Below are positions 6,031-25,578 of a DNA stretch of 50,660 nt, in pieces. A program made the position numbers and the translations under genes. Source of the DNA: Xenophilus sp. AP218F (lineage in GTDB: Bacteria; Pseudomonadota; Gammaproteobacteria; Burkholderiales; Chromobacteriaceae); contig NJIE01000034.1 of NCBI GenBank assembly GCA_002213445.1, forward strand, positions 1 to 50,660, in the 5' to 3' direction. The notes beneath the pieces were generated by a model that saw nothing but the letters and a program-made list of their open reading frames with translations, was not told where the DNA came from and ran no database searches. Position 1 is the stretch's first letter, and each line of letters begins with the position of its first letter.

Positions 6031-8628
6031 ATGTCGAGGCTGAGCCGCGCCACCTCGCTGCTGCTGAGCGTGCTATTGGGCATCGCGCTGCTGTTCGCCG
6101 AATACTGGCAGCTGCACGCCCACGACCAGAAGCAACAGCACGCCCGGCTGCAGCAATGGAGCGTGCAAGGCGCAAGCCTGGTGCTCTCCCGCTTGCAATC
6201 GGCGCTGGACGAATCGACGCTACTGGCCGAACAACTGTCCGCGCTGCCGGACAGCGGCCCCTTTCCCAGCCTGCCGCCGTCGCTGCGCGGCGTGGCGCGC
6301 GATGACGGCCTGATCGCCGGCGTGGGCGTGTTGCAACGCGTCGACGCCTCGCGCCGCGCCGCTTTCGAAAACCACATCACTACCCCCATCCACGCCTTGC
6401 AAGGCTCCCGGCTGACCAACAGCCCGCCCTTGCCGCTGTATTACCCCGTCGCCAGCTATCTGCCCAACGACGGCAATGCCCTGCCCCTGGGCCTGGACAT
6501 GGGCGGCATCGGCGACGCCAAGCCCCGCATCGAACAGGCCTTGCGCGGCGACGCCGCGGTATTGATGGTGAATCAGCCCTACCGCCATGGGCCGATACGG
6601 CTGGACATCGTCACCCGCCTCAATCGCGGCGACGCCTTGCTGCTCGTCAATCTGCGCCCGGAAAAACTGCTGCAGCCGGCGGGCAGCCTGCCGGACGGCA
6701 ATCCGCTGCGGCACATGCGCCTGCTGGTATGGAGCAAGGAACAAATGGACGCGCCGCTGCTGGATTCGCAGCCGGGACAGGCGCTGCCGTCGGAACCGCC
6801 GCTGTTCACCAGCAGCCAGCGCATAGGCGAAAGCGCCCTGCTGTTCGGCTCCTATCCGCTGCAAGAGCCGCCGCTGCTCAGCCTCACCTCGATACGCGCG
6901 CTGGCGCTGTCCACCATCCTGCTGCTGCTGTTGCTGGGCATACACCTGCGCCAGCAGCGCATCAATCTGCGTTTGCGCAACCGGCTGCAACAGCAACACC
7001 AGCAATTGGAACAAAACAACCAGACGCTGCGCGGCCAGGTGCGGGAGCGGGAGCAATCCGAGCAGGCGCTGGCGCAAAGCGAAGCGCGGCAACGCGCCAT
7101 CCTGCACGCCAGCTCCGACGCCATCATCCTGATCCGCCAGGACGGACGCATCGCGCAAGCCAACCCGGCGGCGGCTCGACTGGTGGGCCAGCCGGCCGCG
7201 TCGCTGGACAATCTGCCGGTGGGCGCGCTGCTGGCCGAGCTGTACAGCGCCGACCCGCGCTATGATTTCGAACAGCACGCCAAAGCGCGCGCCGGCCAGC
7301 CGTTCGAGGCGCAATTGCTGCGCAGCGACGACCAGCGGCTGCCGGTGGAGCTGTCGCTCAGCGAAGTCACCTTGCCGGACGACAAACTGTACGTGATGGT
7401 GTGCCGCGACATCAGCCTGCGCAAGGAGCAGGAAGAAGCGCTGATCCAGCTGAAGAACAGCCTGGCCGAGCAGGTGGAAGTGCAAAGCCGGCAAATGGCC
7501 GCGCTGCTGGACGCCAGCCCGCTGGCGATGGCCTATATCGTCGATCGCAAGCTGCGCCAGGTGAACAAGGCCTTTCTGGAGCTGTTCTCGAAAACGGAAG
7601 AGCAGGCCATAGGCGAGTGCACGATAGGCTACTTCGAAAGCCCGGAAAGCTGGGAGCGCACCGGCAAGGCCCTGTACAGCCTGCTCAACGACGGCAAGGT
7701 GGTGCAAACCGAGGTGAAACTGCGCACCGGCGGCGGCCAGCTGTTCTGGTGCCGGCTGCACGGCAAGGCGGTCAACCCCTCGGTGCCCAAGCTTGGCACC
7801 ATCTGGGTCTACCAGGACACCTCGGCCCAGCGCGCGCTGGAAGAAACGCTGCGCCAGGCCAAGATACTGGCCGAAGAAACCAGCCACGCCAAAACCGAAT
7901 TTCTGGCCAATATGTCGCACGAGCTGCGCACGCCGCTGCACGCCATCCTCGGCTTCGCCGAAATGGGCCAACTGCGCTCGCGCAACCTCGGCGACGACAA
8001 GCTGGAACAATACTTCACCCGCATCAACAACAGCGGCAGCCGGCTGCTGACCCTGCTCAACGACTTGCTGGACATGGCCAAGATGGAAGTGGGCCGCATG
8101 GAGTACAACATCGGCCGCGGCAGCCTCACCCAATGCCTGCGCGAGGCTTGCGACGAGATGACTCCGCTGGCGGCGCGGAACCAGATCAGGATCTATCTGC
8201 ACAGCACGCCGGAACAGCTCACCGCCGATATCGATGCCTTCCGCCTCGGCCAGGTGATCCGCAATCTGCTCTCCAACGCCATCAAGTTCAGCCCGCCCGG
8301 CGCGGACATCCGAGTGGTGGCCAGCCTGATCGCGCAACCGGAAGGCGACCAGATCGCGGTCAGCGTCGAAGACTCCGGTCCCGGCATCCCGGAAAAAGAG
8401 CTGGAAGCGATTTTCGACAAATTCATCCAGAGCAGCAGCACCAAGACCGGCGCCGGCGGCACCGGCCTTGGCCTTGCCATCTGCCGCGAGATCGTCCTCG
8501 CGCACCACGGCCGCATCGCGGCGGCCAACCTCCCGGACGGCGGAGCCGCATTCACGTTCACCATCCCGCAGCGCCATGGGCGGGGCGCAGAAGGAGCTTC
8601 CGATGCCTCACAAACTATTGCTCGTTGA
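6031..8628 (+). CDS. Membrane sensor histidine kinase, periplasmic sensor + two PAS + HisKA + HATPase
   Basis: The 865-residue kinase has a transmembrane helix at about 8-27, a periplasmic region of about 260 residues that resembles CHASE-type sensors, and a second helix near 290-306. A coiled coil follows. Two PAS-like domains occupy about 345-470 and 485-610. The HisKA site is NMSHELRTPLH with His630. The ATPase domain has N box NLLSNAIKF, G1 DSGPGIP (about 781) and GGTGLGLAI. There is no fused receiver. Its stop lies 26 bp inside the next gene, a receiver protein that is the likely phosphorylation target. The ligand is unknown. Confidence 0.9.
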   Translation: MSRLSRATSLLLSVLLGIALLFAEYWQLHAHDQKQQHARLQQWSVQGASLVLSRLQSALDESTLLAEQLSALPDSGPFPSLPPSLRGVARDDGLIAGVGVLQRVDASRRAAFENHITTPIHALQGSRLTNSPPLPLYYPVASYLPNDGNALPLGLDMGGIGDAKPRIEQALRGDAAVLMVNQPYRHGPIRLDIVTRLNRGDALLLVNLRPEKLLQPAGSLPDGNPLRHMRLLVWSKEQMDAPLLDSQPGQALPSEPPLFTSSQRIGESALLFGSYPLQEPPLLSLTSIRALALSTILLLLLLGIHLRQQRINLRLRNRLQQQHQQLEQNNQTLRGQVREREQSEQALAQSEARQRAILHASSDAIILIRQDGRIAQANPAAARLVGQPAASLDNLPVGALLAELYSADPRYDFEQHAKARAGQPFEAQLLRSDDQRLPVELSLSEVTLPDDKLYVMVCRDISLRKEQEEALIQLKNSLAEQVEVQSRQMAALLDASPLAMAYIVDRKLRQVNKAFLELFSKTEEQAIGECTIGYFESPESWERTGKALYSLLNDGKVVQTEVKLRTGGGQLFWCRLHGKAVNPSVPKLGTIWVYQDTSAQRALEETLRQAKILAEETSHAKTEFLANMSHELRTPLHAILGFAEMGQLRSRNLGDDKLEQYFTRINNSGSRLLTLLNDLLDMAKMEVGRMEYNIGRGSLTQCLREACDEMTPLAARNQIRIYLHSTPEQLTADIDAFRLGQVIRNLLSNAIKFSPPGADIRVVASLIAQPEGDQIAVSVEDSGPGIPEKELEAIFDKFIQSSSTKTGAGGTGLGLAICREIVLAHHGRIAAANLPDGGAAFTFTIPQRHGRGAEGASDASQTIAR

Positions 8629-12072: not shown

Positions 12073-12660
12073 ATGGACGCATACATGGGGACCATCACGG
12101 TCTACGGCTTCAATTACGCGCCGCAAGACTGGGCGCTCTGCCAGGGCCAGACCTATCAGGTTTCTCAATACGAAGCCTTGTACTCCCTGCTGGGCACGCT
12201 CTACGGCGGCACCGCTTCGCAAAACTTCAAACTGCCCAATCTGACCGGCCGCATGCCGATAGGCACCGGCCCCGCCCAGCCGGCCTATAATCTGCCGGCC
12301 TACAATCCGGGCCAATTCGGCGGCGCGCAAAACGTGGCGCTCGGCGTCGCCAACCTGCCGGCCCACTCGCACACCGCCACGTCCATGGCGGTGACCTTCC
12401 ATGCCGCCGGCACGCCGTCACCCACTACGCCGGCCAGCGCGCCCAGCGCCAGCAACCCATATCTGGGCGCGTCCGGCGGAGGAACCGGACTGGCCAGCAT
12501 CTGGTCCACCGCGCTGAACAACCCGGTATCGGTGCAAGGCCTGTCCGCCACCGGCAATACCGATCTCACCGGCGGCAACGCGCCGTTCAGCGTGCAAAAC
12601 CCGTTCCTGGCGTTGAATTTCTGTATCGCCATCAACGGCTTGTATCCGGTCCGCCCCTGA
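12073..12660 (+). CDS. Phage-tail-collar-domain protein (MdpB-like)
   Basis: The 195-residue protein begins with YMGTITVYGFNYAPQDWALC and continues with LYGGTASQNFKLPNLTGR, both hallmarks of tail-collar (microcystin-dependent) proteins. Despite the name these are common in bacterial chromosomes outside prophages, and no phage structural, lysis or integrase genes lie here. It has no signal peptide. The C-terminus ends FSVQNPFLALNFCIAINGLYP, again typical of the family. AGGAGG lies six bases before the ATG. Many genomes carry such genes as tandem sets of three; this locus has one. It is followed by a DUF6916-like gene in the same direction. Function is unknown. Confidence 0.85.
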   Translation: MDAYMGTITVYGFNYAPQDWALCQGQTYQVSQYEALYSLLGTLYGGTASQNFKLPNLTGRMPIGTGPAQPAYNLPAYNPGQFGGAQNVALGVANLPAHSHTATSMAVTFHAAGTPSPTTPASAPSASNPYLGASGGGTGLASIWSTALNNPVSVQGLSATGNTDLTGGNAPFSVQNPFLALNFCIAINGLYPVRP

Positions 12661-13242: not shown

Positions 13243-13779
13243 TCAAACGCCAACCCGCGTCTCGCCCCGCAAAGAGCGGCGCTCCGGATACCACACCAGC
13301 TTGCTGGCCATCTCTCCGATTGCTTCCGGCACAAAACCCAGCTGTTGATAAAGCTGGCGCGCCTGCGCATTGCTGTTCCACACCACCACCGCCAAAGGCG
13401 CGCGAACTTGCCAGGCAGCCTGCTGCAAACCCTGCAGCACCTCCTTGCCATAGCCTTGGCCGCGCGCCACCGGGGCCATGGCCAGGAAAATGACGCGTAC
13501 TTCGTTGTGGCCGAAATCCACCATGACGACGCCTACGCTGGCATCGGACTTTTCAACGATGAAATGCATTGCATTGGGATAGTTGTCGCCCGCGCCCCGC
13601 TGCAGCACTTGATACTGTTGCGCCTGCACGGTGCGAATCAACTCGTCTTCGCCGTCTATCAATTGCAGATCCGGGCGAGCGCTGCGATAAATTTCGGCGA
13701 TGAAAGGCTGGTCGCTTTGACGCGCCGGACGCAAGCGCACGTTGTGGGCCAACGCGGCCGTATTCAAGAATGCAGACAT
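13243..13779 (-). CDS. GNAT-family N-acetyltransferase at the end of the giant-protein operon
   Basis: The protein has 178 residues. Visible GNAT elements are VRLRPARQSDQPFIAEIYR at the N-terminus, the acetyl-CoA loop-like ARGQGYGKEVL, and NSNAQARQLYQQLGF. The start at 13779 was preferred over 13785 because a GGGGG tract sits seven bases upstream of it. It begins 37 bp after the M50-HlyD gene on the same strand, so it is probably the last gene of that operon. Similar acetyltransferases are also known beside tail-collar genes, and a broken inverted copy lies after the DUF6916-like gene. The substrate is unknown. Confidence 0.85.
   Translation of the reverse strand: MSAFLNTAALAHNVRLRPARQSDQPFIAEIYRSARPDLQLIDGEDELIRTVQAQQYQVLQRGAGDNYPNAMHFIVEKSDASVGVVMVDFGHNEVRVIFLAMAPVARGQGYGKEVLQGLQQAAWQVRAPLAVVVWNSNAQARQLYQQLGFVPEAIGEMASKLVWYPERRSLRGETRVGV
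13702..13752 (-). repeat. Partner copy of the 34-bp inverted repeat
   Basis: This is the intact copy, lying in codons near the start of the acetyltransferase gene. The two arms are about 510 bp apart and in opposite orientation. The arms therefore bracket nearly the whole acetyltransferase gene. Confidence 0.75.
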
Positions 13780-13816
13780 CGCCATCCCCCCACTCTGTAA
13801 ACGGATCGCCGGCTGC

Positions 13817-15925
13817 TTACCAACCGGCCTCTTTTCTGAAGATGGCCAATAGCTGCCGCCATCCCTTTTCCAGCAAGCTGTAACGCTCGCCCCGCAGCTG
13901 CGCCACGCCGGCCAGCTCTCTTAACGGCGCGGCCAGACGATCGCAATGCTCGAACCGAACCCTGAATGTGGAAGCCAGCGGCACCAAGCCATGATCGCGA
14001 ACCTCCACCGGAATCGGACCGCCATAGCTGGAAGCCAGCAAGGGCTGGTCCAATATCGGCAGATTCAGCTTATCGATCTGGCCCAATCGACAGGTTACGC
14101 CCCAGCGCTCGCCGCTATCGGCGACAAAGCGGGCGATTTGTCCGGTTTGCAGGCCTGCCAGGCCGGCCTCGTCGACGAAAGCCTCTCCTTTCACCCCTTC
14201 CAGACCCACAACGCTCAACAACTGCTCGCCCTCCGGAACGGTTGTGCCTGTTCGAAGCGCGTCGTTGACGTCCGCCACCCTGCCGGAGAACGGCGCAATC
14301 AAGATTAACCGGGCCTGTTGCTGACGCAAGGCCGTCACCTGTTCCTGAGCGGCCTGCCACTGTTTGCGCAAAACCGGGCCTTGCTGCTGCAAAGCCTGAT
14401 CAAACGGCTGCTGCGTAGCTTGCCAGGCCAGATCCCGTTCCCGCGCCTCGGCCAGCGCCAGCTGCGCTTCCATGCTCTGGGAACGCATGCGCGCCAAAAT
14501 CTGTCCGGCTTTGACCCGCTCCCCGTCCCGCGCCAAAACTTCCGTCACTTCGCCCGTCGCGGGCGCGTAAACGCCTTGCGATTGCAAGGCGCCCAATACC
14601 GCCGGACTGGCCACCTCGCGCTGCCAGGGCAAAACCAGAGCCAGCAGCAAAACCAGCGCCGCAGCGACGCTGCGGCGCGTCTCCCGGCCCCAGCGCAGAT
14701 CGGCGCGGCGCATCCACCACGTCATCCATTCGCCGACGATCGGACGGACAATGAACCAGCCAAGCTCGACCGCCAGCAACAGCATGCCAAGCGCCTTGAA
14801 AAACAGGTGATAAACCAAGAGGGCGATGGACAGAAACAATGCCAGACGATACAGCCAGGTCGCCCAGGCGAATAGAATCAATCCGCGCTGTCGCGCCGGC
14901 GGGAAATGCTCAGGCACCGGGTCATCCAGACCCAGCAATGTCCGACGCAAGTGCCAGCGGGCCAAAGCAAAGGCGCGATGGTGCAAATTGGGCAAACCCA
15001 GGTAATCAGCCAGCAGAAAATAGCCATCGAAGCGCATGAACGGGCTGGCGTTGATAGCCAGCGTCGCCAGCCAGGTCGTAGTCGCCAGCAAAAACGCGCC
15101 GGCGCGCAATGGTCCGTCAGGCAAAAAACTCCAGGCCAGCGTAGCCAGGACGGCCAGAATCAATTCCGCCAGCATTCCCGATGCGCCGATCAGCAAACGC
15201 TGTCGCCGGGAGTCGAGTTTCCACGCATCGTTGGTGTCCGTATACAACACCGGCATCATCACCAGGAAAGCCACCCCCATGGCCGGCACCCGGCAGCCGA
15301 AATGGCGCGCGGTCAAGGCATGCCCCATCTCGTGCAGCACTTTGGCGATGCTCAGCGACAGGCCGATGCCGATGGCCGCGCCGAGGCCGCTGTAGGCGGA
15401 AAAGGTATGCGTGAACTCGTCCCAGCGCCGCGACGCCAAAGCCAGCGCCCACAGCGACACCGCCCCCATCGCCAGCCAGAAACGCGGATGAAATACCCAA
15501 CGCGTCCAAGGCAGCAGCCGGTTGAGCAACGCTTCCGGCCGCAGCAAGGGCACCCGGAAAAACAGGTAATTCTTCAGCAGCCACATGGCGCGGCCAGGGC
15601 GGCTGGCGACATGCATCTGCCACAGCCGTTCGCTCTGCTCGACGCTGCCGGCCTGCAACAGCTGGTGACCGGATAGAAACCGCAGCACGGCCGCCACGTC
15701 GTCGCCGTCCAAATGCAAGGCGGTGTCGGCATTGACCGCCCGCACCACCGCATCGACGGTCCCCAACGGCCAACGCGACAGGATTTCAAAGCTGGCCCAG
15801 CCAATCTGGTAATACCGGTTGGCGCAAGGATCATGCAAAGTCCAGCTGGGAGAGCCATCCGCCAGGGTCGGGCCGGCATGCAGCGTCAGCTCCTGACGCA
15901 AGGGGGGGAGCGCAGGCGCACTCAC
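13817..15925 (-). CDS. PqqD-like / M50 site-2 protease / HlyD tripartite membrane protein
   Basis: The protein has 702 residues. About 1-100 looks like a PqqD-type peptide-binding domain, with ANRYYQIGWASFEILSRW and a helical end. The membrane region (about 145-440) carries HEMGH at 198-202 and NASPFMRFDG (292-301). These are the zinc motif and the distal Asp motif of site-2 proteases, so catalysis in the membrane is plausible. From about 450 a HlyD/biotinyl-lipoyl-like adaptor begins (GVYAPATGEV, then GERVKAGQIL). A hydrophobic helix separates the two parts. It starts with GTG at 15925, one base past the upstream gene's stop codon. No ABC ATPase is encoded in the operon. I infer a role in recognising, clipping or exporting the giant protein. 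Confidence 0.85.
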   Translation of the reverse strand: MSAPALPPLRQELTLHAGPTLADGSPSWTLHDPCANRYYQIGWASFEILSRWPLGTVDAVVRAVNADTALHLDGDDVAAVLRFLSGHQLLQAGSVEQSERLWQMHVASRPGRAMWLLKNYLFFRVPLLRPEALLNRLLPWTRWVFHPRFWLAMGAVSLWALALASRRWDEFTHTFSAYSGLGAAIGIGLSLSIAKVLHEMGHALTARHFGCRVPAMGVAFLVMMPVLYTDTNDAWKLDSRRQRLLIGASGMLAELILAVLATLAWSFLPDGPLRAGAFLLATTTWLATLAINASPFMRFDGYFLLADYLGLPNLHHRAFALARWHLRRTLLGLDDPVPEHFPPARQRGLILFAWATWLYRLALFLSIALLVYHLFFKALGMLLLAVELGWFIVRPIVGEWMTWWMRRADLRWGRETRRSVAAALVLLLALVLPWQREVASPAVLGALQSQGVYAPATGEVTEVLARDGERVKAGQILARMRSQSMEAQLALAEARERDLAWQATQQPFDQALQQQGPVLRKQWQAAQEQVTALRQQQARLILIAPFSGRVADVNDALRTGTTVPEGEQLLSVVGLEGVKGEAFVDEAGLAGLQTGQIARFVADSGERWGVTCRLGQIDKLNLPILDQPLLASSYGGPIPVEVRDHGLVPLASTFRVRFEHCDRLAAPLRELAGVAQLRGERYSLLEKGWRQLLAIFRKEAGW

Positions 15926-15926
15926 G

Positions 15927-17258
15927 TTACCACCCCAGCCATTGGCGCGCCGCGGTCAGGGGGCGGCGCAAAGCGTAGTAAACCAGCGGCACCCAGTCGC
16001 CATACACTCGCGCCGTGCCCATCTGTCCCAGTCTTGGCTTGTCGCCGCCGATGAAGCGGGCCTGCAGCCGATACGCCAGCAGCCCGCCGTCGGTTACCTC
16101 CGCCTTGTAGGCGACGCGCAGAATCTCCGCCTCGTACGATTCGGTCGGAGAGGCATTGGGATACAAGGTGACCTGGCCGCCCGGCTGAACGTCGATCGCC
16201 TCCGCCGCCGGCAGCCAGGCCGCCAGCTCCACATGAGCCGGATCGGCCAGCGTCATGACTTTTTCGCCTACCGTCACCGCCCGTCCTTGCCAATCATTGC
16301 GGTCCGAAAACACCACGACTCCGGCGCCCGGCGCGACCACATGCAAGCGCTGCAGCTCCCGGCCGGTATATTCAGCCGCGATGCTTTTCTCCTCGAATCT
16401 GGCGCGATCCTGCGCCATGGCAAGTTTGCCTTTGTCGTCCGTCACCGCCAGCTGGGCGCTGGCGCGAAAGCTCTCCTGCGCGGCGTCGCGTTCACGCGCC
16501 GCCATGGCGAACTGGCCCGCCAGAGCCGTCGCGTCCAGATCGAACAAGGAGTCGCCGGCCTTGACGCGCTGGTTGGGCTGCACCTGGATACTGTCGATGA
16601 CGCCGCTCAGCGGCGCGCGCAGCAAGATCGGCGTTTGCGGCACGACTTCGCCTCGCGCCAACACGCTCAAACGGACCGGCAAACATGCCAGCAACAGCAC
16701 GCCAAGCAATAGCCAGCGCTGCCGACGCCCTGGCCTCAGCCATTGCAGGGCCGCCTCTCGCCAATTGCGCTTCGGCGCGAACCGCAACAGCGCATGGCCA
16801 TAGCCGTGCGCCAACTCCTCCGCCAATTTGCGCTCGTAATCGCTCCAAGGGTGTTCGCGCGCCAGCAGCCAGGCGCCTTGCTCGCCCAAGCGCAACCACA
16901 AGGCATGCGCAGGCAACCAGGAAGACCACTCCTCGGCCAAGGCTTCCGGCAACTGGCCGGCGTCGATCAACCGGCTGGCAGCCGCGCCTTCCGGCTCAGG
17001 CTGCGCCGCCAGATGCCGAAATACGCGGGACAGCCATTGCAGATAAGGGGCGGTAGGATCCAGTTCCGACAGGCCGGACAGCGCCGCGACATGGCGATGC
17101 AGGCCTTCCCGCCATACTGCCGCCTGTCGATAAGGCAGCAGCTGCTGGCTCTCGTTGACGATGATGAAACCCAGTTGCTCGGGCTTGGCCGCATCGCGCG
17201 CGCGGCGCAATAACTGCAGCAGACCCGCCAGTTCGCGGCTTCTATCGGCGTGTCCCAT
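15927..17258 (-). CDS. HlyD-like adaptor with cytoplasmic GAF-like N-terminus
   Basis: The protein has 443 residues. The first 180 residues are soluble and look like a GAF-type sensory domain, a weak match by eye. A single transmembrane helix follows (WLLLGVLLLACLPV, about 190-205). The rest is a periplasmic adaptor with lipoyl half-motifs LRAPLSGVIDSIQVQPNQRV and VVAPGAGVVVF, and a beta-barrel end. It is an inner-membrane-anchored membrane-fusion protein. It starts seven bp after the upstream HlyD gene and ends one base before the M50 gene's start. The GAF-like part could respond to a small molecule, which is inference. Confidence 0.82.
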   Translation of the reverse strand: MGHADRSRELAGLLQLLRRARDAAKPEQLGFIIVNESQQLLPYRQAAVWREGLHRHVAALSGLSELDPTAPYLQWLSRVFRHLAAQPEPEGAAASRLIDAGQLPEALAEEWSSWLPAHALWLRLGEQGAWLLAREHPWSDYERKLAEELAHGYGHALLRFAPKRNWREAALQWLRPGRRQRWLLLGVLLLACLPVRLSVLARGEVVPQTPILLRAPLSGVIDSIQVQPNQRVKAGDSLFDLDATALAGQFAMAARERDAAQESFRASAQLAVTDDKGKLAMAQDRARFEEKSIAAEYTGRELQRLHVVAPGAGVVVFSDRNDWQGRAVTVGEKVMTLADPAHVELAAWLPAAEAIDVQPGGQVTLYPNASPTESYEAEILRVAYKAEVTDGGLLAYRLQARFIGGDKPRLGQMGTARVYGDWVPLVYYALRRPLTAARQWLGW

Positions 17259-17265
17259 GCGCGGC

Positions 17266-18027
17266 CTATTTGAAACTGGCCCAGCCGCTCATCCCCGGCA
17301 ACAGGCTGGCGCTATCGCCGTCAATGACGCCTACCGCGAGAATGGACTGGCTGACCGGATCGATCTGCGCGCCCAGGCGCTCAATCCTGGCGGGAAAGCT
17401 GGCGCCGAGCTCATCCACCGCCACGCTGAACTTGCTGCCGGGCTTGAGCTTGCCCAGCCATCTGGACGGCACCAGCATGCGCAGTTCCAGAGCGCCGGCA
17501 TCGACGATATCCAACACCGGATTGCCCGGGTTGACATATTGATGGACCGCCGCGATGCGGCGCGCCACGCGGCCATTGAATGGCGCATTGATGACGCACT
17601 TGCCGACGATGGTCTGCATATAGCTGGCGTCGGCCGCCGCCTCCTTCGCCTTGCCTTGCGCCTGCGCCACGTCCAGCGCGCCGGCGGAGTTAAGCTTGGC
17701 CAGTTGATTGTTGACCTTGAGCAATTGGCTGGCGGCTTCCAGCGAGGCTTGCGACTTGCGCAATTGGGCGCGGTAGCTGCCGCAGTCGAACTGCACCAAG
17801 GCCTGGCCCTTGCTGAAACTGCCGCCCTCCGGCACCGGCAGCGCCGCGATCTTGGCGGCCACTTCGCCGGAAAGCGTCACCGCGTTGCGCGCCATCAACT
17901 GCACGCGAATGCGGCCATCTCCGACGCCGGCAACCGGCGCCGCAAGCGGCTTGGCTGGCGGCGTCGCCGCGCAGACCATCCCTGCGGACAACAAGATCGC
18001 AAGACCCAGCTCCTGTGTTCGCTTCAT
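17266..18027 (-). CDS. HlyD-like periplasmic adaptor protein
   Basis: The 253-residue protein has an N-terminal Sec signal (about 1-20). The lipoyl-like halves are VTLSGEVAAKIAALPVPEGG...GQALVQFDC and CVINAPFNGRVARRIAAVHQ. A short alpha-helical hairpin and a C-terminal barrel follow, ending in LLPGMSGWASF. This is a short membrane-fusion protein, secreted to the periplasm rather than anchored. Its ATG overlaps the TolC-like gene's TGA (ATGA), so the two are probably translationally coupled. Confidence 0.85.
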   Translation of the reverse strand: MKRTQELGLAILLSAGMVCAATPPAKPLAAPVAGVGDGRIRVQLMARNAVTLSGEVAAKIAALPVPEGGSFSKGQALVQFDCGSYRAQLRKSQASLEAASQLLKVNNQLAKLNSAGALDVAQAQGKAKEAAADASYMQTIVGKCVINAPFNGRVARRIAAVHQYVNPGNPVLDIVDAGALELRMLVPSRWLGKLKPGSKFSVAVDELGASFPARIERLGAQIDPVSQSILAVGVIDGDSASLLPGMSGWASFK

Positions 18028-19544
18028 TGTCCGCTCCCGGTCATTTGTCCTTGCCAGCGAACTTCCGCGCCCTGAAACGCCGCAGACAAGGCTGACAGGT
18101 CATGGCTGGCGGCGCTTTCCGGCAGCGGGTCCAACCCCAGACTGGAGCCCATCTGGCCATAAGCGTTTTGCAGGTCTCCGTAACTTTGATACAAGCGCAA
18201 GGTCGAGAACACCGCATTGGCGTCCGCCAGAATCGCCGGCAGACGGCCTTGCACGCCGCTATCGGTGGCATTGCGGTTCTGCACATAGATGCGCTGCTCC
18301 ACATCGTTCAGCTCTTGCTCCAGGGAGAACTGACGCGAACGGCCATTCAGATCCAGGTAGGCCACATGGACCTGGGTCAACACCGCCATGTTCAAGGCCA
18401 TGCGCTGGGCTTGAGCGACTTGCAGCTGCGCGTCGGCGGCCTTGGTGATCGGCCCCGCGCTGAACAGATTGAGCAGGTTCCAGCTGATGCGCAGGCCCGC
18501 GTCGCTCCATGTGTTGTTGACCAGGAACTTGTTGCTGTCATAATTCTGGCCGACGCTGAATTCCAACCCGGGCAGCAGCCTGGCAATGGCCTTGCGCGTT
18601 TCCGCCACGCCGATGCGCTCGTTGTAACGCGCCTCGTTCAACTCCGGCCGATTGAGCAAGGCCATCTCCTCCATCTCCTCCAGCTTGAGCCCCAGCGTCG
18701 GAATCGGCAGCCCATCGGGAACCGCTACCTTGAATGGAGTGCCCGGCGGCACATTCATGATGGCGGCCAATCTGGGCTTGGCCTGGAAGAGCGCGTTGCG
18801 GATGGCGCTCATCTGCCGAATCACATCCAGCAATTGGCGGCGATAGTTCAGCGCCTCCAGCGGCGCGCGCAACTTTTGCTTCTCCACCTGCCGCGCATCC
18901 TCCAGCGCGCGGTTGGTCTCTGCCAGCAACGAATCGATGCGGCCTTCCAGTTGCTGCGCGCCCACAGCCTGCCACCAGGCCTCGCGCACTTGCTGCATCA
19001 GTTGTTGCGCCACCTTGCGTTTGCGCTGCTGCAAAATCAGCAACCGATCGGACTGCTGCTGAGCGGAGTAGTAGCTGACGCCAAAATCCAGCACATTCCA
19101 GCTCAGATTCAGATCCGCGGTATGGCCGCGGCGCTCCGAGGAGATGGAGGGCACCAGCGACTGTTCGCCGGTGGCGACGTTCTGCGATGAAGACGCGTTG
19201 TCTTTGTTGCGGGTGGTGTAGCCCGCCGCCAAAGCCAGCTTGGGCAACATATCCAGGCTGGACAGATCCAGCTGGCGCTGCGCCATCGCCTCTTCCATCA
19301 GTTTGACGCGGTAGTCCAGGTTGTACTTCAGCGCGCGCGCCATCGCCTCTTGCAAGCTAACCGGGCCGGCCAGCGGCTCCTGGCTGCCGAACATCGCCTG
19401 GCGATCCGCCGCCAGCGTGGCTTGGCGATCCCCCAGGCTCATCGGCGCGGGCGCGACCGCGCAACCGGACAAGGCCAGCGCCACCCACGCCGCCAGCGCG
19501 CGACGACCTCCGCGCCCCGCGCCTCCCCCTTGAATCTTCTTCAT
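18024..19544 (-). CDS. TolC-family outer-membrane lipoprotein channel
   Basis: The 506-residue protein has a signal ending in ALSGC, a lipobox. Long alpha-helical stretches with periodic Gln/Ala and the repeat AEARKAIARLLPG-like pattern (here ETRKAIARLLPGLEFSVG) are typical of outer-membrane efflux proteins. Its length fits the TolC/OprM family. The start at 19544 has GGGGGC just upstream; the in-frame extension to 19661 overlaps the giant gene and lacks features. It is the probable outer-membrane exit for the operon. It overlaps the HlyD gene by 4 bp and begins 55 bp after the giant gene. Confidence 0.85.
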   Translation of the reverse strand: MKKIQGGGAGRGGRRALAAWVALALSGCAVAPAPMSLGDRQATLAADRQAMFGSQEPLAGPVSLQEAMARALKYNLDYRVKLMEEAMAQRQLDLSSLDMLPKLALAAGYTTRNKDNASSSQNVATGEQSLVPSISSERRGHTADLNLSWNVLDFGVSYYSAQQQSDRLLILQQRKRKVAQQLMQQVREAWWQAVGAQQLEGRIDSLLAETNRALEDARQVEKQKLRAPLEALNYRRQLLDVIRQMSAIRNALFQAKPRLAAIMNVPPGTPFKVAVPDGLPIPTLGLKLEEMEEMALLNRPELNEARYNERIGVAETRKAIARLLPGLEFSVGQNYDSNKFLVNNTWSDAGLRISWNLLNLFSAGPITKAADAQLQVAQAQRMALNMAVLTQVHVAYLDLNGRSRQFSLEQELNDVEQRIYVQNRNATDSGVQGRLPAILADANAVFSTLRLYQSYGDLQNAYGQMGSSLGLDPLPESAASHDLSALSAAFQGAEVRWQGQMTGSGQ

Positions 19545-19599
19545 ATTGCCCCCTGCCCCGCTCGCTGATTTATATGGATGTCGGGATGCTGCCCGACGG

Positions 19600-22500
19600 T
19601 CAGGCCACATCGCCCGCCTGCAGCCAGGCGGCGACCTGCTCGTCGAACGCCGGTTTGCCATGCTGGCTGAACTGCTCGCTCAAGGCCGGCTTGCCGGCAA
19701 GCTCCGCGTTTTCCGTCGCCGCGGCGGCCGCTTGGCGTTCCGCTCCCGCCTTCAATTGCATATGCGTCACGCCGCGATGGCCGTCCTGATCGCTGACGGT
19801 TACCTCCAGCGACAGCGATTTGCTCCATCCCGCCGGCGGCGTGCCGCTGAAACGCCCGGTCTGGGGGTCGAACTTCAGCCAGGCTGGCAAGGGTTGACCG
19901 TTGCTTTGGCGCACCTGGACGTTCAATACCGCGTCGGTGTTGCGCGAAATCACCGTGCCGGCCGGCAGGCTGAAGTTAAAGCTTTGTCCCGCAGTCAGCG
20001 GCCGCACGCCCAGATCCGGCAAAACCTGCAACGCTGCGCCAGCGGGGCCGCCCAGACTGGAAACGAAAGGCAAGCCGACGCTCCCCTGCGCACGCGAAAT
20101 CGACGCCGCCGGCGGGAATGGGTCCTGGCCAAACGGGATCTGGATGGCGTTGCCGGTTAGCGGCCCTGACAACCCTATCGCCGGCATGCTTTGCGCGCCG
20201 CCATGCTCAGCGTCGCTTACCGCCGCCAGCACGATATTGGGCGTGATAGGTCCGACATTGATGACTGGAGCAGGAGAAGACTGGGGCGCGGTTTCGACTG
20301 GCGGCGTCACCGGGATGACCACATTGGCAGACGTGGCCAGCTGGTAAGCCGGGCCCACGACTTGCCGTTGCGTCACATTGCCGGCCAGGTCAGCCGCCGC
20401 GCCGGACCGGAGCGCCAACGCCACCGAACCTGCTCCGCTGATCCCGGTCAATTGCACCACGTAATGGCTATCGCTGAGGCGGACGATATTGCCGATGCTG
20501 CCGCTCGCCCCGCCGCTGGCGATCAGCCGCAAGTCGCTGGCGCTCAAACCGACGATAGGCTTGTTGAAGACCAGGTCGTAACGCAGGCTGCTGGCTGATC
20601 CGGTAGCCGGATCCAGTCGGGCAAACGTCTGCAATGCCGGCGCGGAGGTATCCACGGTCAGAGTGAACGATGACGACTGCGCGCTGACATTGCCGGCCAG
20701 ATCAGTGGCGGCGGCGCGGACGCTGTGCTGGCCATCGGCCAGGGGCTGGGTCAGGTTGTAAAGCCAGACGCCGTTGCCATCGGCGGTGGCGACGCCCGCT
20801 TGCGCGCCATCGATGAAGACCGTCACCTTGCTGCCCGCTTCGGCGTGCCCGGTCAGGCTCGGGCGATTGACATTGGTGATGCCGTCACGGTCGCTGGAGC
20901 CGCTATCGGTAGCCACCGTCAGACTGGTGTCGGTTGGCGTGTCGGGCGCGGCCGTATCGACCGTGACGACGTAGGCGGCAGACTGGCCGCTGACATTGCC
21001 CGCCGCGTCAGTCGACGTCGCGCGGACGCTGTGGTTGCCGTCCGCCAGCGGACTGGTCAGGCTGTAGCTCCACGCGCCGCTGCCGTCCGTAGTCGCCGTC
21101 CCCACCGCCGTGCCGTCGAGATAAACCGTTACCGTGCTGTTCGCTTCGGCGCTGCCGGTCAGCGTTGGCTGAGCGTTGTTGGTGACGCCGTCGCCATGGC
21201 TGCTGCCGGTATCGGTCGCCGCGCTCAAGCCTAGGCTTGACGGCGCGCTTGGCGCAGCGGTGTCGATCGCCACGTTGCAGGCGCCGGATAGGCTGCTGTT
21301 GACGCCCCCGCTGCTGGCCATGACGGTAATCGCGTGCGCGCCATCGCTCAACGGCACCGCAAAACTGTAGCTCCACGCGCCGCTGCCATTCGCCGTGGTG
21401 GAGTCGACCGCCACGCCGTCAACGTAGATGGTGACCGTGCTGCCGGCCTCCGCTGTACCTGTCACCGTCGGGGTATGGTCGCTGGTCCTGCCATCGGTGT
21501 TGCTGCTGCCGGTGTCGGTACCCGCCGTCAGACCGCTGACCGTCGGGGTAGGCAGCTGAATCGCCATATTGCGGGTGGCCGCCGCGCTGTTCTTGATGCC
21601 GTCATTGACGACGAAGCTGATCACTCGGGTGGCAGTGCTGGGCGAAACGGCAGTGTCGTTGTAAGTGACCGCCCGCAACGCGGCCTGCCATTGCGCCAGG
21701 GTGGCTGTCGCGCCGCTGGAGCTTAGCGTCAACACGCCGGTGCCGCTGTTGTAGCTGGCGACGATGTTGCCGAAAGCGCTGGCATTGCTATTTGTAAAGG
21801 CCAGCACGTCTTCGCCGCTGTGGAAGTTGCCGGTGATCGATACCGTCGCGCTGGCCAGGGTGGCGTTGTCCAGATCCGACAGCGCGATGCCGCCATCTAC
21901 CGCCACTGGCGTCGGCGCGCCGCTGATGGTGTAGCTACCGCTGGCGCCGGACACGGTGGCGATAGGCGTCTGGTCTGTAGCGGCGACTGTGATTGTGCGG
22001 GTTGCCGCCGCGCTGTCTTTGCTGCCGTCGTTGACCATAAAGCTGACCATGCGCGTGGTCGTGTTGGGCGTAATGGCGCTGTCGGTATAGGCAACCGCGC
22101 GCAAGGCCGCCTGCCACTGCGCCAAGGTAGCCGTCGCGCCGCTGGAGGTCAGCGTCAGCACGCCGGTTCCGCTGTTGTAGCTGGCGACGATGTTGCCCAT
22201 GGTGCTGCCGTTGTTGGTAAAGGACAGCACGTCTTCGCCGCTATGGAAGTTGCCGGTGATCGCCACCGTCGCCGAGGCCAACGTAGCGTTGTCGAGATCG
22301 GACAAGGTCAGGCCGCTGTCCACCGCGACTGGCGTGGAGACGGCGTTATCGCCGGCGGTGAAGGCGGCGCTGCCGCCGCTGGCGGTGGCGACAGGCGTCT
22401 GATCGGTAGCGGCTACCGTAACGGCGCGGGTTGTCGCCGCGCTGCTCTTGGTCCCATCGTTGACCACGAAGCTGACGGTGCGTGTTGCGGTATTGGGCGT

Positions 22501-25482
22501 CACCGCGCTGTCGGTGTATTTGACTGCGCGCAGCGCCGCCTGCCACTGCGCCAAGGTGGCCGTCGCGCCGCTGGAGGTCAGCGTCAGCACGCCGGTGCCG
22601 CTGTTGTAGCTGGCGACGATGTTGCCGTAAGTGATGGCGCTGGTATTGGTAAAGCTCAGCACGTCCTCGCCGCTATGGAAGTTGCCGGTGATCGATACCG
22701 TGGCGCTGGCCAGCGTGGTGTTGTCGAGGTCGGACAAGTTCAGGCCGCTGTCTACTGCGACTGGCGTCGAGCTGACATTGTCGCCGGCCGTAAACGCCGC
22801 GCTGCCGCTGCTGGCGGTGGCGACAGGCGTCTGATCGGTGGCGGCTACCGTGACGGTACGCGTCGTCGCCGCACTGCTGTTGCTGCTGCCATCCACCACC
22901 TGGAAGCTGATAGTGCGCGTGGCGGTATTGGGCGTCACCGCGCTGTCGGTGTAGGCAACCGCGCGCAGGGCCGCCTGCCACTGCGCCAAGGTAGCCGTCG
23001 CGCCGCTGGAGGTCAGCGTCAGCACGCCGGTGCCGCTGTTGTAGCTGGCGACGATGTTGCCCATGGTGCTGCCGTTGTTGGTAAAGGACAGCACATCTTC
23101 GCCGCTGTGGAAGTTGCCGGTAATCGAAACCGTGCCGCTGGCCAGGGTCGGGCTGGCGTTGTCGGTGACGGTGATGCCGCCATCCACCGCCACCGGCGTG
23201 GAAGCTGCATTGTCGCCGGCGGTGAACGCCGCGCTGCCGCCGGTAACCGCGAGTGCCGGCGCGGCGCTCACCGCCATCGCCACGCTGGCCGCGCTGCTGG
23301 TGCCGCCGCGGCCGTCGTTAACGGTCACCTGGATGGTGCGGGTGGAGGTGTTGGGGATGCCCGCGGCGGTATTGTTGTAGGTCAGCGCGTCCACCAGCGT
23401 GGTCACCCGGCCGGCGGTGGCGTAGCTGTTCAAGCTCACGATCAGGTCATGGCCGCTGACACCGTCGCCGCTGGCGGCGATGGTGCCGATGGCGACGCCG
23501 CCCACCGATACGGTGCTGCCGACGCTGGTGCCGCTGGACAAGGCCACGGCGCCGCCGGTGTCTATGCCCAGCGCGTCCTCGGCGCCATGGCCGTTGGCCG
23601 AGATGTGGACCGTCACGTTGCCGCCATTGAAATTGGAGGTGTCCGTATCGCTGACGGTGGCGGCCGCGCCGGTATCAAGATGCACGGCGCCGTTGCCGGC
23701 GTAATATATGCTGCTATCGCCGTTCAAGTTGCCGATGACGGGCGCGCTGTCCGCCGCCACGCTGACGGTCTTGGTCACCGTGGAGCTGGTATTGCTGCTG
23801 GCGTCGGTGATGGCGAAGCTGATGGTGCGGCTGCTGGTATTGGGCGTCAGCGAGCTGTCCCGATAGGTGACCGCCTCCAAGGCCGCCTGCCACTGGGCGT
23901 TGGTGGCGGTGGAGCCGCTGGAGGTCAGCGTCAGCACCCCAGTGCCGCTGTTGTAGCTGCCGCTGATGTTGCCCATGGTGCTGCCGTTGTTGGTGAACGC
24001 CAGCACGTCCTCGCCGCTATGGAAGTTGCCGGTAATCGACACCGTGGCGCTGGTCTGCGTCGACGCGGCGGTATCGCTCAACGTGATGCCGCTGTCCACC
24101 GTCACCGCGCTGCCGGTGCCGGAGCTGTAGGCGCTGCTGCCGCCGCTGGCGGTCAGCGTCGGCCCGGGGAAATGGAAGTTGGTGGCGTTGATGGCGCCGA
24201 TGCCGAGCAGGCCGGTGATGTTGTGGCCGTTGGCGGCCAGCACGCGGAACGAGTCTATGCCCTGGAAATTGCTGTTGCTGGACACATTGAACGTCACCGG
24301 CGAGCCGTCGTTGTCGATGTCGCTGACGCTCTGGCTCAAGGTGGCGCCGGCCACCGCGGAACCGTTCAGATACCCCACCAGCTGCATGGTGCCGCCATTG
24401 AAGGTGGAATCGTAGCCGTTGATCACCACCGTGATGGAGTTCAGCGTGAACAGGCTGCCGTCGTTGGGCTTCACCGAGAAGTAATTGATCTGCTTGACGC
24501 CGTCGCTCAGCGCATCCACGGTTTCCACCGAACTGGCGCCGTCCTTCTCGATGATGATCATCTCGTTCTGGCCGTCGCTGTTGGAATTCATCTGCATCGT
24601 GAAATTCCAGCCAAGAACATTGCTGACCGTCAGCGAGGAAACCCCAGTGGGCACCACGGTGGTGGAGCCATCCTGCGAATCGAAGGTGGTGGTGCCGGAG
24701 GTGGGGCGGGTCAGCAAGCCGTGATAGTCGGCCAGGTTCAGCGCCGCCACATGCAGCCGGTCGGTCGAATACTCCAGCGTCCAGTCGCCGCCCAGGCTGG
24801 CGGCGCCGGTGGCGTCGGTCGAACCGGCGGTAGTGCGCCCGCTTTCACGGGCGATGGCGTTGATCAGCGCCGCGCCATCGTGGCCTTCGGCGACATCGCA
24901 GCCATACAGCAGAATGTCGCCGCCGGGCCGCAAGGCCTGGCCTATTGTCGCCAGGTCTGCCTGACGGCTGGCGACATTGGCGGTGGTCAGCTCCACCCCT
25001 CCAAGCTGCAAATCGTTTTCCTGGCCATGAGAGATGATATGGATGGCGCCGTAGCCATGGTGCATGCTCGCCCACTGCGCGATCTGCGCCAGGCCATCCT
25101 TGCTGCTGTCCAGGATCACCACTTGATAGCCGGCCGGCAATTGCGCCAGCAGGCTGCGCAGATTGGCGACATCGGACTCGACGAATACAACCTGCGGCGC
25201 ATTGGCGGCCTGGCCGCCGCGGCTGTCGCGCGCGCTGGCCGCGCTGGCGGCCGACTCGTGGATCGCCGGGACGGCCGGCGGGGCGGCTTCGCCGTGCCGC
25301 GGCTGCGCCGCCGCGACGTCGTGCGGCTCGGCGATGGCATGCGTGGCCTCGGCCACCGAGGCCGCCACGGCGCCGTCGAACATCAGCCGCGGCTCCAAGG
25401 CCTGCAGCAGCAAACGGGATTGCGGCCTGGATGCCGCCTTGCCGCCGCGGACATCTTGGCCCGCCTTCTTCCACCATGCCAT
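19600..25482 (-). CDS. Giant repeat surface protein with LEPR-type N-terminus and DUF4347 domain
   Basis: The 1960-residue protein starts at 25482, with AGGGAGAG upstream. The N-terminus (about 1-30) is basic and has no Sec signal, then LEPRLMFDGA at 29-38. DUF4347 covers about 95-260, with His152 in IISHG and Cys195 in LYGCDVA. Next come five copies of a repeat containing HSGEDVL plus one divergent copy, typically 143-144 residues. Three bacterial Ig-like repeats with GSSxxDG follow. A further Ig-like domain and a cadherin-like SFNFSLPAGTVI...LPAWLKFDP domain end the protein. There is no RTX nonapeptide. It looks like an adhesin or matrix protein. The HlyD/TolC/M50 genes downstream are probably its exporter. 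Confidence 0.85.
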   Translation of the reverse strand: MAWWKKAGQDVRGGKAASRPQSRLLLQALEPRLMFDGAVAASVAEATHAIAEPHDVAAAQPRHGEAAPPAVPAIHESAASAASARDSRGGQAANAPQVVFVESDVANLRSLLAQLPAGYQVVILDSSKDGLAQIAQWASMHHGYGAIHIISHGQENDLQLGGVELTTANVASRQADLATIGQALRPGGDILLYGCDVAEGHDGAALINAIARESGRTTAGSTDATGAASLGGDWTLEYSTDRLHVAALNLADYHGLLTRPTSGTTTFDSQDGSTTVVPTGVSSLTVSNVLGWNFTMQMNSNSDGQNEMIIIEKDGASSVETVDALSDGVKQINYFSVKPNDGSLFTLNSITVVINGYDSTFNGGTMQLVGYLNGSAVAGATLSQSVSDIDNDGSPVTFNVSSNSNFQGIDSFRVLAANGHNITGLLGIGAINATNFHFPGPTLTASGGSSAYSSGTGSAVTVDSGITLSDTAASTQTSATVSITGNFHSGEDVLAFTNNGSTMGNISGSYNSGTGVLTLTSSGSTATNAQWQAALEAVTYRDSSLTPNTSSRTISFAITDASSNTSSTVTKTVSVAADSAPVIGNLNGDSSIYYAGNGAVHLDTGAAATVSDTDTSNFNGGNVTVHISANGHGAEDALGIDTGGAVALSSGTSVGSTVSVGGVAIGTIAASGDGVSGHDLIVSLNSYATAGRVTTLVDALTYNNTAAGIPNTSTRTIQVTVNDGRGGTSSAASVAMAVSAAPALAVTGGSAAFTAGDNAASTPVAVDGGITVTDNASPTLASGTVSITGNFHSGEDVLSFTNNGSTMGNIVASYNSGTGVLTLTSSGATATLAQWQAALRAVAYTDSAVTPNTATRTISFQVVDGSSNSSAATTRTVTVAATDQTPVATASSGSAAFTAGDNVSSTPVAVDSGLNLSDLDNTTLASATVSITGNFHSGEDVLSFTNTSAITYGNIVASYNSGTGVLTLTSSGATATLAQWQAALRAVKYTDSAVTPNTATRTVSFVVNDGTKSSAATTRAVTVAATDQTPVATASGGSAAFTAGDNAVSTPVAVDSGLTLSDLDNATLASATVAITGNFHSGEDVLSFTNNGSTMGNIVASYNSGTGVLTLTSSGATATLAQWQAALRAVAYTDSAITPNTTTRMVSFMVNDGSKDSAAATRTITVAATDQTPIATVSGASGSYTISGAPTPVAVDGGIALSDLDNATLASATVSITGNFHSGEDVLAFTNSNASAFGNIVASYNSGTGVLTLSSSGATATLAQWQAALRAVTYNDTAVSPSTATRVISFVVNDGIKNSAAATRNMAIQLPTPTVSGLTAGTDTGSSNTDGRTSDHTPTVTGTAEAGSTVTIYVDGVAVDSTTANGSGAWSYSFAVPLSDGAHAITVMASSGGVNSSLSGACNVAIDTAAPSAPSSLGLSAATDTGSSHGDGVTNNAQPTLTGSAEANSTVTVYLDGTAVGTATTDGSGAWSYSLTSPLADGNHSVRATSTDAAGNVSGQSAAYVVTVDTAAPDTPTDTSLTVATDSGSSDRDGITNVNRPSLTGHAEAGSKVTVFIDGAQAGVATADGNGVWLYNLTQPLADGQHSVRAAATDLAGNVSAQSSSFTLTVDTSAPALQTFARLDPATGSASSLRYDLVFNKPIVGLSASDLRLIASGGASGSIGNIVRLSDSHYVVQLTGISGAGSVALALRSGAAADLAGNVTQRQVVGPAYQLATSANVVIPVTPPVETAPQSSPAPVINVGPITPNIVLAAVSDAEHGGAQSMPAIGLSGPLTGNAIQIPFGQDPFPPAASISRAQGSVGLPFVSSLGGPAGAALQVLPDLGVRPLTAGQSFNFSLPAGTVISRNTDAVLNVQVRQSNGQPLPAWLKFDPQTGRFSGTPPAGWSKSLSLEVTVSDQDGHRGVTHMQLKAGAERQAAAAATENAELAGKPALSEQFSQHGKPAFDEQVAAWLQAGDVA
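21671..24040 (-). repeat. Tandem repeats inside the giant surface-protein gene
   Basis: Blocks encoding HSGEDVL...SGTGVLTLTSSG...WQAAL recur near 21809, 22229, 22668, 23098 and 24009 (plus coordinates of that motif). The best-conserved neighbours are spaced about 429-432 bp. Long stretches are nearly identical in DNA, so recombination could add or drop units. They are coding, not CRISPR. Confidence 0.9.
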
Positions 25483-25550: not shown

Positions 25551-25578
25551 AAAATAGGCCATATCCATTTAAGTGCAA
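25551..25578 (-). promoter_or_regulatory. Candidate promoter for the giant-protein operon
   Basis: On the minus strand TTGCAC (25573-25578), a 16-bp spacer and TATTTT (25551-25556) lie in an A/T-rich patch 69 bp before the ribosome-binding region of the giant gene. This is the most promoter-like match in 25483-25837. Nothing else in that gap is supported beyond the rsmJ ribosome-binding site. Confidence 0.3.

Follow-up and report, generated by a model that had tools for sequence, protein, structure and literature searches.

The operon at positions 13243 to 25482 (minus strand) of contig NJIE01000034.1 of Xenophilus sp. AP218F encodes, on a reading to which we give an even chance, one giant surface protein together with a private export and maturation machine that would be driven by SecA and would dispense with the ATP-binding cassette (ABC) ATPase of type I secretion. 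Coordinates are those of the window, i.e., the whole stretch of 50,660 nucleotides analyzed (positions 1 to 50,660). Transcription runs from the giant gene through those of a TolC-family protein, a short HlyD adaptor, a GAF-like/HlyD protein, and a PqqD-like/M50/HlyD fusion to a GNAT gene. The gaps are 55 bp (giant/TolC), 7 bp (HlyD/GAF-HlyD), 1 bp (GAF-HlyD/fusion), and 31 bp (fusion/GNAT), with a 4-bp overlap of TolC and HlyD, in agreement with the tightly spaced leftward operon described in an initial annotation made from the sequence alone. The gene set points to a way of exporting giant proteins not described before, and what appears to be new is the combination of an N-terminal LExR signal, an RRE-M50-HlyD fusion and, in a sister clade, SecA. 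The features of the operon are as follows.

19600..25482, minus strand: giant surface protein (cargo), 1960 amino acids (aa) from ATG, with a basic N terminus, an LEPR motif, DUF4347, and immunoglobulin (Ig)-like repeats
25369..25398, minus strand: N-terminal motif LEPRLMFDGA, residues 29 to 38 of the giant, proposed export/leader signal (from motif counts)
24715..25191, minus strand: DUF4347 domain of the giant (Pfam, homologue alignment), CHAT/caspase-like by model
19603..19695, minus strand: C-terminal tail of the giant, with the motif GKPALSEQF at 19669-19695, 31 residues from the end
18024..19544, minus strand: TolC-family outer-membrane channel, predicted lipoprotein, 506 aa (OEP, lipobox LALSGC)
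17266..18027, minus strand: short HlyD/resistance-nodulation-division (RND)-type periplasmic adaptor, 253 aa, with a hydrophobic signal-like N terminus (Pfam, TIGR01730)
15927..17258, minus strand: GAF-like domain, one predicted membrane helix, and HlyD adaptor, 443 aa (Pfam, homology)
13817..15925, minus strand: PqqD/RRE-like, M50, and HlyD fusion, 702 aa, GTG start (Pfam, homology, model)
15320..15334, minus strand: HEMGH zinc-binding motif of the M50 domain (residues 198 to 202), with H198, E199, and H202 invariant in aligned homologues
13243..13785, minus strand: GNAT acetyltransferase, last in the operon and optional (Pfam)

Pfam searches bore out most of the parts that the initial annotation had named. 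The giant matched DUF4347 (154 bits) plus Big_13/Big_6 repeats, and its stated length of 1960 residues stands for the ATG start (1992 aa if the alternative in-frame TTG at 25578 is used); RTX families gave no match in it at E ≤ 1. By a simple measure, hydropathy rather than SignalP, it also appears to lack a classical signal peptide, as had been claimed: among its first 110 residues, the most hydrophobic 12-residue stretch has a mean of 1.62, whereas the N termini of TolC and HlyD reach 1.97 and 2.39. The TolC-like lipoprotein was recovered through an OEP match (110 bits) and its lipobox, a lipobox-like sequence being present in 42 of 47 relatives. HlyD domains were found in the three proteins expected to carry them, and the short HlyD scored 110.4 bits on TIGR01730 (cut-off, 94.9). 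No ABC family had a Pfam match among the six operon proteins, as the annotation had held; the operon thus encodes the HlyD adaptor and the TolC channel of a type I system and no ABC component.

Conservation and spread of the cassette

Two groups of homologues are distinguished here: the window-type clade, i.e., fusions without an adjacent SecA gene, this operon included, and a sister clade of divergent fusions that are mostly SecA-linked. A survey of an 84,980-species collection yielded at least 592 matching stretches; the 80 that ranked highest in similarity to the window were retained (named loci reach 10 kb to each side where the contig permits; L289, L311, and L312 were left out of further analysis). 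These 80 loci come from Pseudomonadota of many families, Nitrospira, Geobacteraceae, and sulphate reducers. GAF-HlyD accompanies the fusion in 76 of them, a large cargo gene in 62, the short HlyD in 55, and TolC in 51, many contigs ending nearby. Among 101 relatives searched, 40 carry the fusion, including the window's own genome and 17 of the 18 others of its genus, and the gene order around it recurs. A tblastn search also found the fusion gene in Azospirillum brasilense and Cupriavidus metallidurans CH34. The fusion and DUF4347 go together: both are present in 38 relatives and neither in 59, with two having only the fusion and two only DUF4347 (Fisher P ≈ 6e-23, uncorrected for relatedness). 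Outside the genus, the corresponding counts are 20 (both), 58 (neither), 2, and 2 (P ≈ 8e-15, likewise uncorrected).

Such conservation led us to reject a chance arrangement of genes, and it upholds the dedicated cassette of the initial annotation, which had named a neighborhood not conserved in other genomes as grounds for abandoning the idea; since the neighborhood is conserved, those grounds do not apply. The GNAT enzyme fared otherwise: its presence in the operon is confirmed (Pfam, 42.5 bits), but it recurs in just 10 of the 80 loci and was rejected as a core part. An ABC-motif gene occurs somewhere in the stretch in eight of the 80 loci and inside the cassette in none, the nearest lying 183 bp away on the other strand (L147). 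It is unlikely that an ABC gene was missed through cut loci, given that these eight stretches do show ABC-motif genes and the cassette interior none. Judged by its gene content, the cassette is dedicated, widespread, and conserved, and it falls outside the definition of type I secretion. Just past the end of the operon, a gene on the opposite strand (12073-12660) encodes a small protein with a phage tail collar domain (85 bits).

Window-type machine genes also occur in Escherichia coli. Of 5,426 complete E. coli genomes, 24 match the four genes from TolC to the fusion, 22 of them with a query coverage of 80% or more, at 21 plasmid and four chromosomal sites; Citrobacter plasmids carry the fusion gene as well. 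In L290 (NZ_CP081687.1, 4830-24581), an E. coli plasmid typed IncFIA/IncFIB by PLSDB, a window-type cassette is found in which the four machine genes adjoin a cargo gene of 4,459 aa encoding the motif ALESRQLFDGAA followed by DUF4347-like sequence. IS1 and a MalT-type regulator lie near this cassette.

The fusion protein and its giant partner

The fusion consists of a PqqD/RRE-like region at about residues 10 to 90, an M50 region with HEMGH at 198-202 and FDG at 299-301, and an HlyD region from about residue 435 to the end. The M50 family PF02163 matched at 38.6 bits (cut-off, 27.2). The HExxH motif and the distal aspartate in the membrane domain that define M50 site-2 proteases are both present, and H198, E199, H202, and D300 are invariant in all 67 aligned fusion homologues. 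Of the tripartite fusion proposed initially, Pfam therefore recovered the M50 and HlyD parts, and the PqqD-like part is suggested by homology to the sister-clade fusions. There, PF05402 (PqqD) matched in 16 of 30 proteins at E ≤ 0.01, and profiles of the two clades align over their full length (690 columns, E 2e-100). The structural model of the operon's fusion (mean predicted local distance difference test score [pLDDT], 89.6; predicted template modeling score [pTM], 0.71) places three strands and then three helices at residues 14 to 86, the order of elements in PqqD/RRE domains. Homology and model together point to a probable PqqD-like domain in the operon's fusion. The GAF label is of the same kind: Pfam confirmed HlyD and found no GAF in the operon's own GAF-like/HlyD protein, and the label rests on homology to sister-clade adaptors. 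GAF scored above cut-off in all three of those scanned and matched weakly in six of 40 window-type adaptors (best E, 0.0044), and the GAF-HlyD profiles of the two clades align end to end (428 columns, E 5e-35).

Some members of the fusion family depart from this layout. In the sister-clade loci L260, L261, and L262, the PqqD-like and M50-HlyD parts occupy two overlapping frames of 143 and ~590 aa, representing either a split gene or a frameshift. Two outlier fusions of ~827 aa, L049 (genome G028), with a long insertion in the HlyD part, and L054 (G035), make up a third form of the family; neither SecA nor a DUF4347 cargo was seen in their stretches.

On the cargo side, the most widely shared feature seen is N-terminal. 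Of 36 DUF4347 proteins, 34 have the loose form of the motif LExRxxF[DN] ahead of the domain and 32 the strict form; among 1,315 control windows, the figures are three and one. Both exceptions are from the sister clade and have the near forms LAPRILFSAD and LEPRIMYSAD. The 36 proteins are those with room upstream of the domain (35 distinct domains, L069 being identical to L106; L105 and L107, with the domain at the stretch end, were excluded); 17 come from relatives of the window and two (L038 and L046) from the sister clade. The motif is not confined to DUF4347 proteins, the domain being present in 17 and absent from six of the 23 named-locus proteins that carry it. When the giant was compared with the E. 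coli plasmid cargo, the sole alignment at E ≤ 1e-3 covered residues 19 to 260 (36%), i.e., the motif and DUF4347. Sister-clade cargo proteins have the forms LEPRxLLS, LEKLEDRILLSAD, and similar. On the curated LEPR-XLL model NF012209, the sister-clade cargo of L037 scored 30.8 bits, above the cut-off of 17, and the giant 13.3 bits, below it, so that membership of the giant in that family was rejected. Within DUF4347, a conserved pair corresponds to His152 and Cys195, the cysteine being kept in 20 of 20 aligned homologues and the histidine in 17; the predicted model of the domain resembles CHAT/caspase-like folds (VIA-align re-comparison of Foldseek's own candidates). The excerpt consulted of PMC12322963 mentions a DUF4347 protein raised in a stationary-phase proteome.

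The other end of the cargo is conserved in the window's clade. The pattern G[KR]xx[LFVI]xxQ[LFVIM], 19 to 49 residues from the C terminus, occurs in 35 of 51 window-type tails and in none of 10,200 internal windows, figures to be read knowing that the pattern was written after the tails, chosen by composition, had been inspected (L160, with unread letters, was left out). In the giant, the motif is nearly doubled (GKPALSEQF...GKPAFDEQV). None of 25 sister-clade tails has the pattern, and a motif of their own, R[I..]x[WF], was discarded as weak (six of 25 tails against 6.1% of internal windows). By eye, the sister cargo tails of L270, L274, and L278 to L282 finish with a short hydrophobic stretch and then basic residues, resembling a sorting tail. 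Given the conserved C-terminal signature, of which the initial annotation made no mention, the N terminus may not be the sole end that is recognized.

Cargo size differs between the clades. Window-type cargo proteins read at both ends span ~1,850 to 4,459 aa. Those of the sister clade are often far longer: three genomes of a single genus have open frames of 9,794, 9,804, and 9,797 aa, nine of another 20 upstream stretches stay open across 19.5 kb, and Pseudosulfitobacter has a gene of 38.2 kb; shorter ones exist as well (2,025 aa in L249). In the SecA-type locus L288 (NZ_CP085155.1), a small DUF3467 gene (7616-7957) separates the 38.2-kb cargo gene from that of GAF-HlyD.

SecA in the sister clade and candidate motors

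The sister fusions are ~20 to 25% identical to that of the operon, and a SecA-like gene of ~670 aa directly adjoins them, often overlapping. SecA DEAD, preprotein-binding, and P-loop domains matched in the two sister SecAs scanned, and TG[EA]GK[ST] is kept in 49 of 50 SecA-like reading frames above 500 bits. Among the 101 relatives, all 11 extra SecAs with a full-domain score adjoin a sister-clade fusion (the count leaves out matches below ~32 bits as well as G027's split canonical gene); conversely, a SecA gene accompanies 11 of the 12 sister-type fusions. A wider set of 398 Pseudomonadota genomes, in which the two or three best candidates per genome were scored and counts are lower bounds, contains at least 42 extra SecAs as counted by eye (41 of at least 575 bits and a broken copy in G387). 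Forty adjoin an HExxH fusion (38 in fetched loci and two by coordinates), and the other two lie at contig ends (L245 and L258). The pair is likewise found on plasmids of Rhizobium, Mesorhizobium, Ensifer, Methylosinus, and roseobacters. In a tree of 84 fusions, the SecA label requires two changes versus 28.2 for shuffled labels, a difference that overstates the linkage because most sister rows were fetched for having SecA. The operon's fusion sits in the SecA-less clade of this tree.

The presence of a private SecA beside the fusion in the sister clade makes Sec-type ATP hydrolysis the leading energy candidate, and Sec-driven passage is, at about even odds, the best single hypothesis for the operon's branch. 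The initial annotation had proposed an export system and left its energy source open; cassette conservation, the N-terminal motif, the probable PqqD-like domain, and the intact M50 site support the former in part, and SecA is now the first candidate for the latter. In the mechanism that we propose, the short basic stretch and LExRxMFDGA of the giant would act as an export/leader signal in place of a classical signal peptide, and the cytoplasmic PqqD-like (RRE) domain of the fusion would bind it. The M50 intramembrane center would cut near the signal, freeing the mature N terminus. The giant would cross the inner membrane by SecA-driven threading, most simply via SecYEG, powered by the housekeeping SecA in the operon's branch and, in the sister clade, by its own SecA paralogue serving a frequently much larger cargo. 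The HlyD domains of the fusion, GAF-HlyD, and short HlyD may then align with the TolC-like lipoprotein into a conduit through the periplasm and outer membrane. Sec passage in the operon's branch, signal binding, cleavage, and conduit assembly are all inferred.

Several observations weigh against this reading. PF05402 matched in none of the 67 window-type fusions at E ≤ 0.05, the operon's own included. A Foldseek search with the whole fusion model returned 68 matches at E ≤ 0.001, the best 50 of which are all adaptors (MacA, MexA, AcrA, and EmrA-like), with none for the PqqD-like or M50 parts. The N terminus of the cargo differs from a normal Sec signal by hydropathy, and the conserved C-terminal motif of the window's clade could be a type I-like signal. 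No SecA gene was seen in any of the 80 best window-type loci, nor beside the sister fusion of L046 or the outliers of G028 and G035, within the stretches read. The operon's own genome has one SecA only (a 924-aa frame) and no second, dedicated one; without a private SecA in this branch, its motor is inferred from a sister clade of distant sequence. A dedicated SecY was looked for in 18 genomes and not found: SecY is single copy in 16 and double in one, and one gave no match. Finally, type I ABCs are frequent in a sample of 50 genomes chosen for having the fusion and no extra SecA (G028 has the long outlier form only) and scored against three curated cut-offs, LssB, HlyB, and PrtD. The LssB type is present in 32, the operon's genome included (G000 C16:469411-471492). 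In the 18 LssB-negative genomes, the only ones searched for the other two, the HlyB and PrtD types occur in five each (union, nine), so that 41 of the 50 have some type I ABC above cut-off.

These ABC counts feed an alternative that we hold to be unlikely, in which an unlinked ABC, of the LssB/LapB type or a general one, is the motor of a type I-like secretion and the cassette supplies adaptors, channel, and protease, perhaps with the GKxxLxxQL tail of the cargo being read. The adaptor and TolC families are indeed those of tripartite systems, and a conserved C-terminal cargo motif would suit such a route, as RTX type I cargo has a C-terminal signal (PMC8277102, in the portion consulted). However, nine of the 50 genomes (G001, G016, G017, G072, G116, G123, G182, G310, and G394) have no ABC above any of the three cut-offs, which makes type I ABCs common but not constant. 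Among the nine, high scores short of the cut-off were seen in G072 and G116, and a full-length match at generic scores in G016 and G017. The other five show generic scores only, and no HlyB-model match at E ≤ 1e-100 in them covers the N-terminal domain. TolC, HlyD, GAF-HlyD, and the fusion occur together in G001, G016, G017, and G072, and the fusion alone was found in G116, G123, G182, G310, and G394. The sister clade, moreover, has SecA and not an ABC, and no cassette of the 80 loci encloses an ABC-motif gene. Should an unlinked ABC drive the operon's branch after all, this branch would instead represent a variant of type I secretion.

Distinctly unlikely, in our estimate, is that the giant reaches the periplasm by ordinary Sec and that the cassette acts afterwards, HlyD and TolC carrying or holding it at the outer membrane and M50 releasing it late, possibly at the C terminus, while DUF4347 could self-process the N terminus. 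Cleavage within or close to membrane segments is known from other M50 proteases, and the conserved C-terminal motif of the window's clade, the hydrophobic and basic ends of several sister tails, and the CHAT/caspase-like model of DUF4347 with its retained His and Cys would all fit late action. The feature seen to be shared most widely among cargo proteins is nevertheless N-terminal, a PqqD-like domain lies ahead of the protease on sister fusions, the cargo shows no classical signal peptide by hydropathy, and DUF4347 is missing from six of the 23 motif-bearing proteins.

That no ATPase is involved at all, the M50/HlyD membrane domain forming or gating a passage through which a proton gradient or folding on the outside pulls the chain, seems very improbable. 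It would suit the several membrane segments predicted in the fusion only, of three proteins tested (fusion, GAF-HlyD, and giant), and the compact set of cargo and four machine genes on one E. coli plasmid; however, neither a channel-like fold nor conserved pore residues emerged, and the sister clade keeps a SecA-like ATPase with its TG[EA]GK[ST] motif nearly invariant. Almost no weight attaches to a system for ribosomally synthesized and posttranslationally modified peptides (RiPPs) with the giant as a mere neighbor: RiPP maturation typically involves PqqD-like and M50 parts, and the peptide protease models NF041824 and NF058609 match below cut-off, but the giant is the regular partner of the cassette.

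Relation to known systems and significance

The SecA-driven export proposed here shares a TolC channel, HlyD adaptors, and a giant repeat protein with the type I secretion of giant adhesins (LapBCE/LapA and SiiE type). It differs in that the cassette, by motif, has no internal ABC in 80 loci, an M50 protease is fused to an adaptor, and the shared cargo feature is N-terminal, with no RTX match in the giant. By profile, the protease belongs to the same M50 subfamily as the daptide and YydH-LiaK proteases, and in sister fusions it likewise has a PqqD-like domain in front: NF041824 (daptide leader protease) matches all 67 fusions and NF058609 matches 55. Unlike those proteases, the operon's fusion misses both cut-offs (148.3 bits against 300 for NF041824; 35.5 bits for NF058609), carries a fused HlyD part, and is partnered by a giant protein and not a small peptide.

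A second SecA linked to giant surface proteins is also found in the Gram-positive accessory Sec system (SecA2/SecY2), which the sister clade resembles in this respect. Unlike SecA2/SecY2, SecA is found here in the sister clade only, SecY is mostly single copy, the partners are HlyD adaptors and an M50 fusion, and the two sister SecAs scanned fell below the cut-off on all four SecA2 models.

An N-terminal LExRxL(L/M) on large surface proteins is common to the cargo described here, LEPR-XLL (NF012209), and PF07595, the giant differing from LEPR-XLL by its LExRxMFDGA form. As given in the part of PMC8567305 consulted, the planctomycete surface signal PF07595 reads RRLxxExLExRxLLA and the planctomycete cell-surface motif is credited to Studholme et al. 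2004; PMC10868602, likewise in part, mentions a Vibrio protein of ~8000 aa with LEPR-XLL. Both motifs are on record as export signals or domains, that of LEPR-XLL for very long proteins, but the sections consulted of these two papers name no export machinery for either. A broader proposal, to which we give somewhat less than an even chance, is that the LExR motif (LExRxMFDGA, LEPR-XLL, and LExLEDRxLLSA) constitutes a cross-phylum export signal read by PqqD-M50-HlyD fusions, with Sec-driven transport and leader cleavage replacing the ABC pump. The SecA branch would then be a Gram-negative accessory Sec for proteins ranging from ~2,000 to over 12,000 residues, with the operon representing the SecA-less form that relies on the housekeeping SecA.

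In the literature searched, which includes the accessible parts of PMC13274458 and PMC8262886 and reaches few subscription journals, no description of such a system was found. The cassette provides a concrete candidate machine for the LEPR-XLL and planctomycete surface motifs. If the proposal is true, Gram-negative bacteria would export giant proteins without an ABC pump, intramembrane proteases would take part directly in protein secretion, and there would be an explanation for a class of extra SecA genes in Pseudomonadota, 40 of the 42 counted adjoining a fusion.

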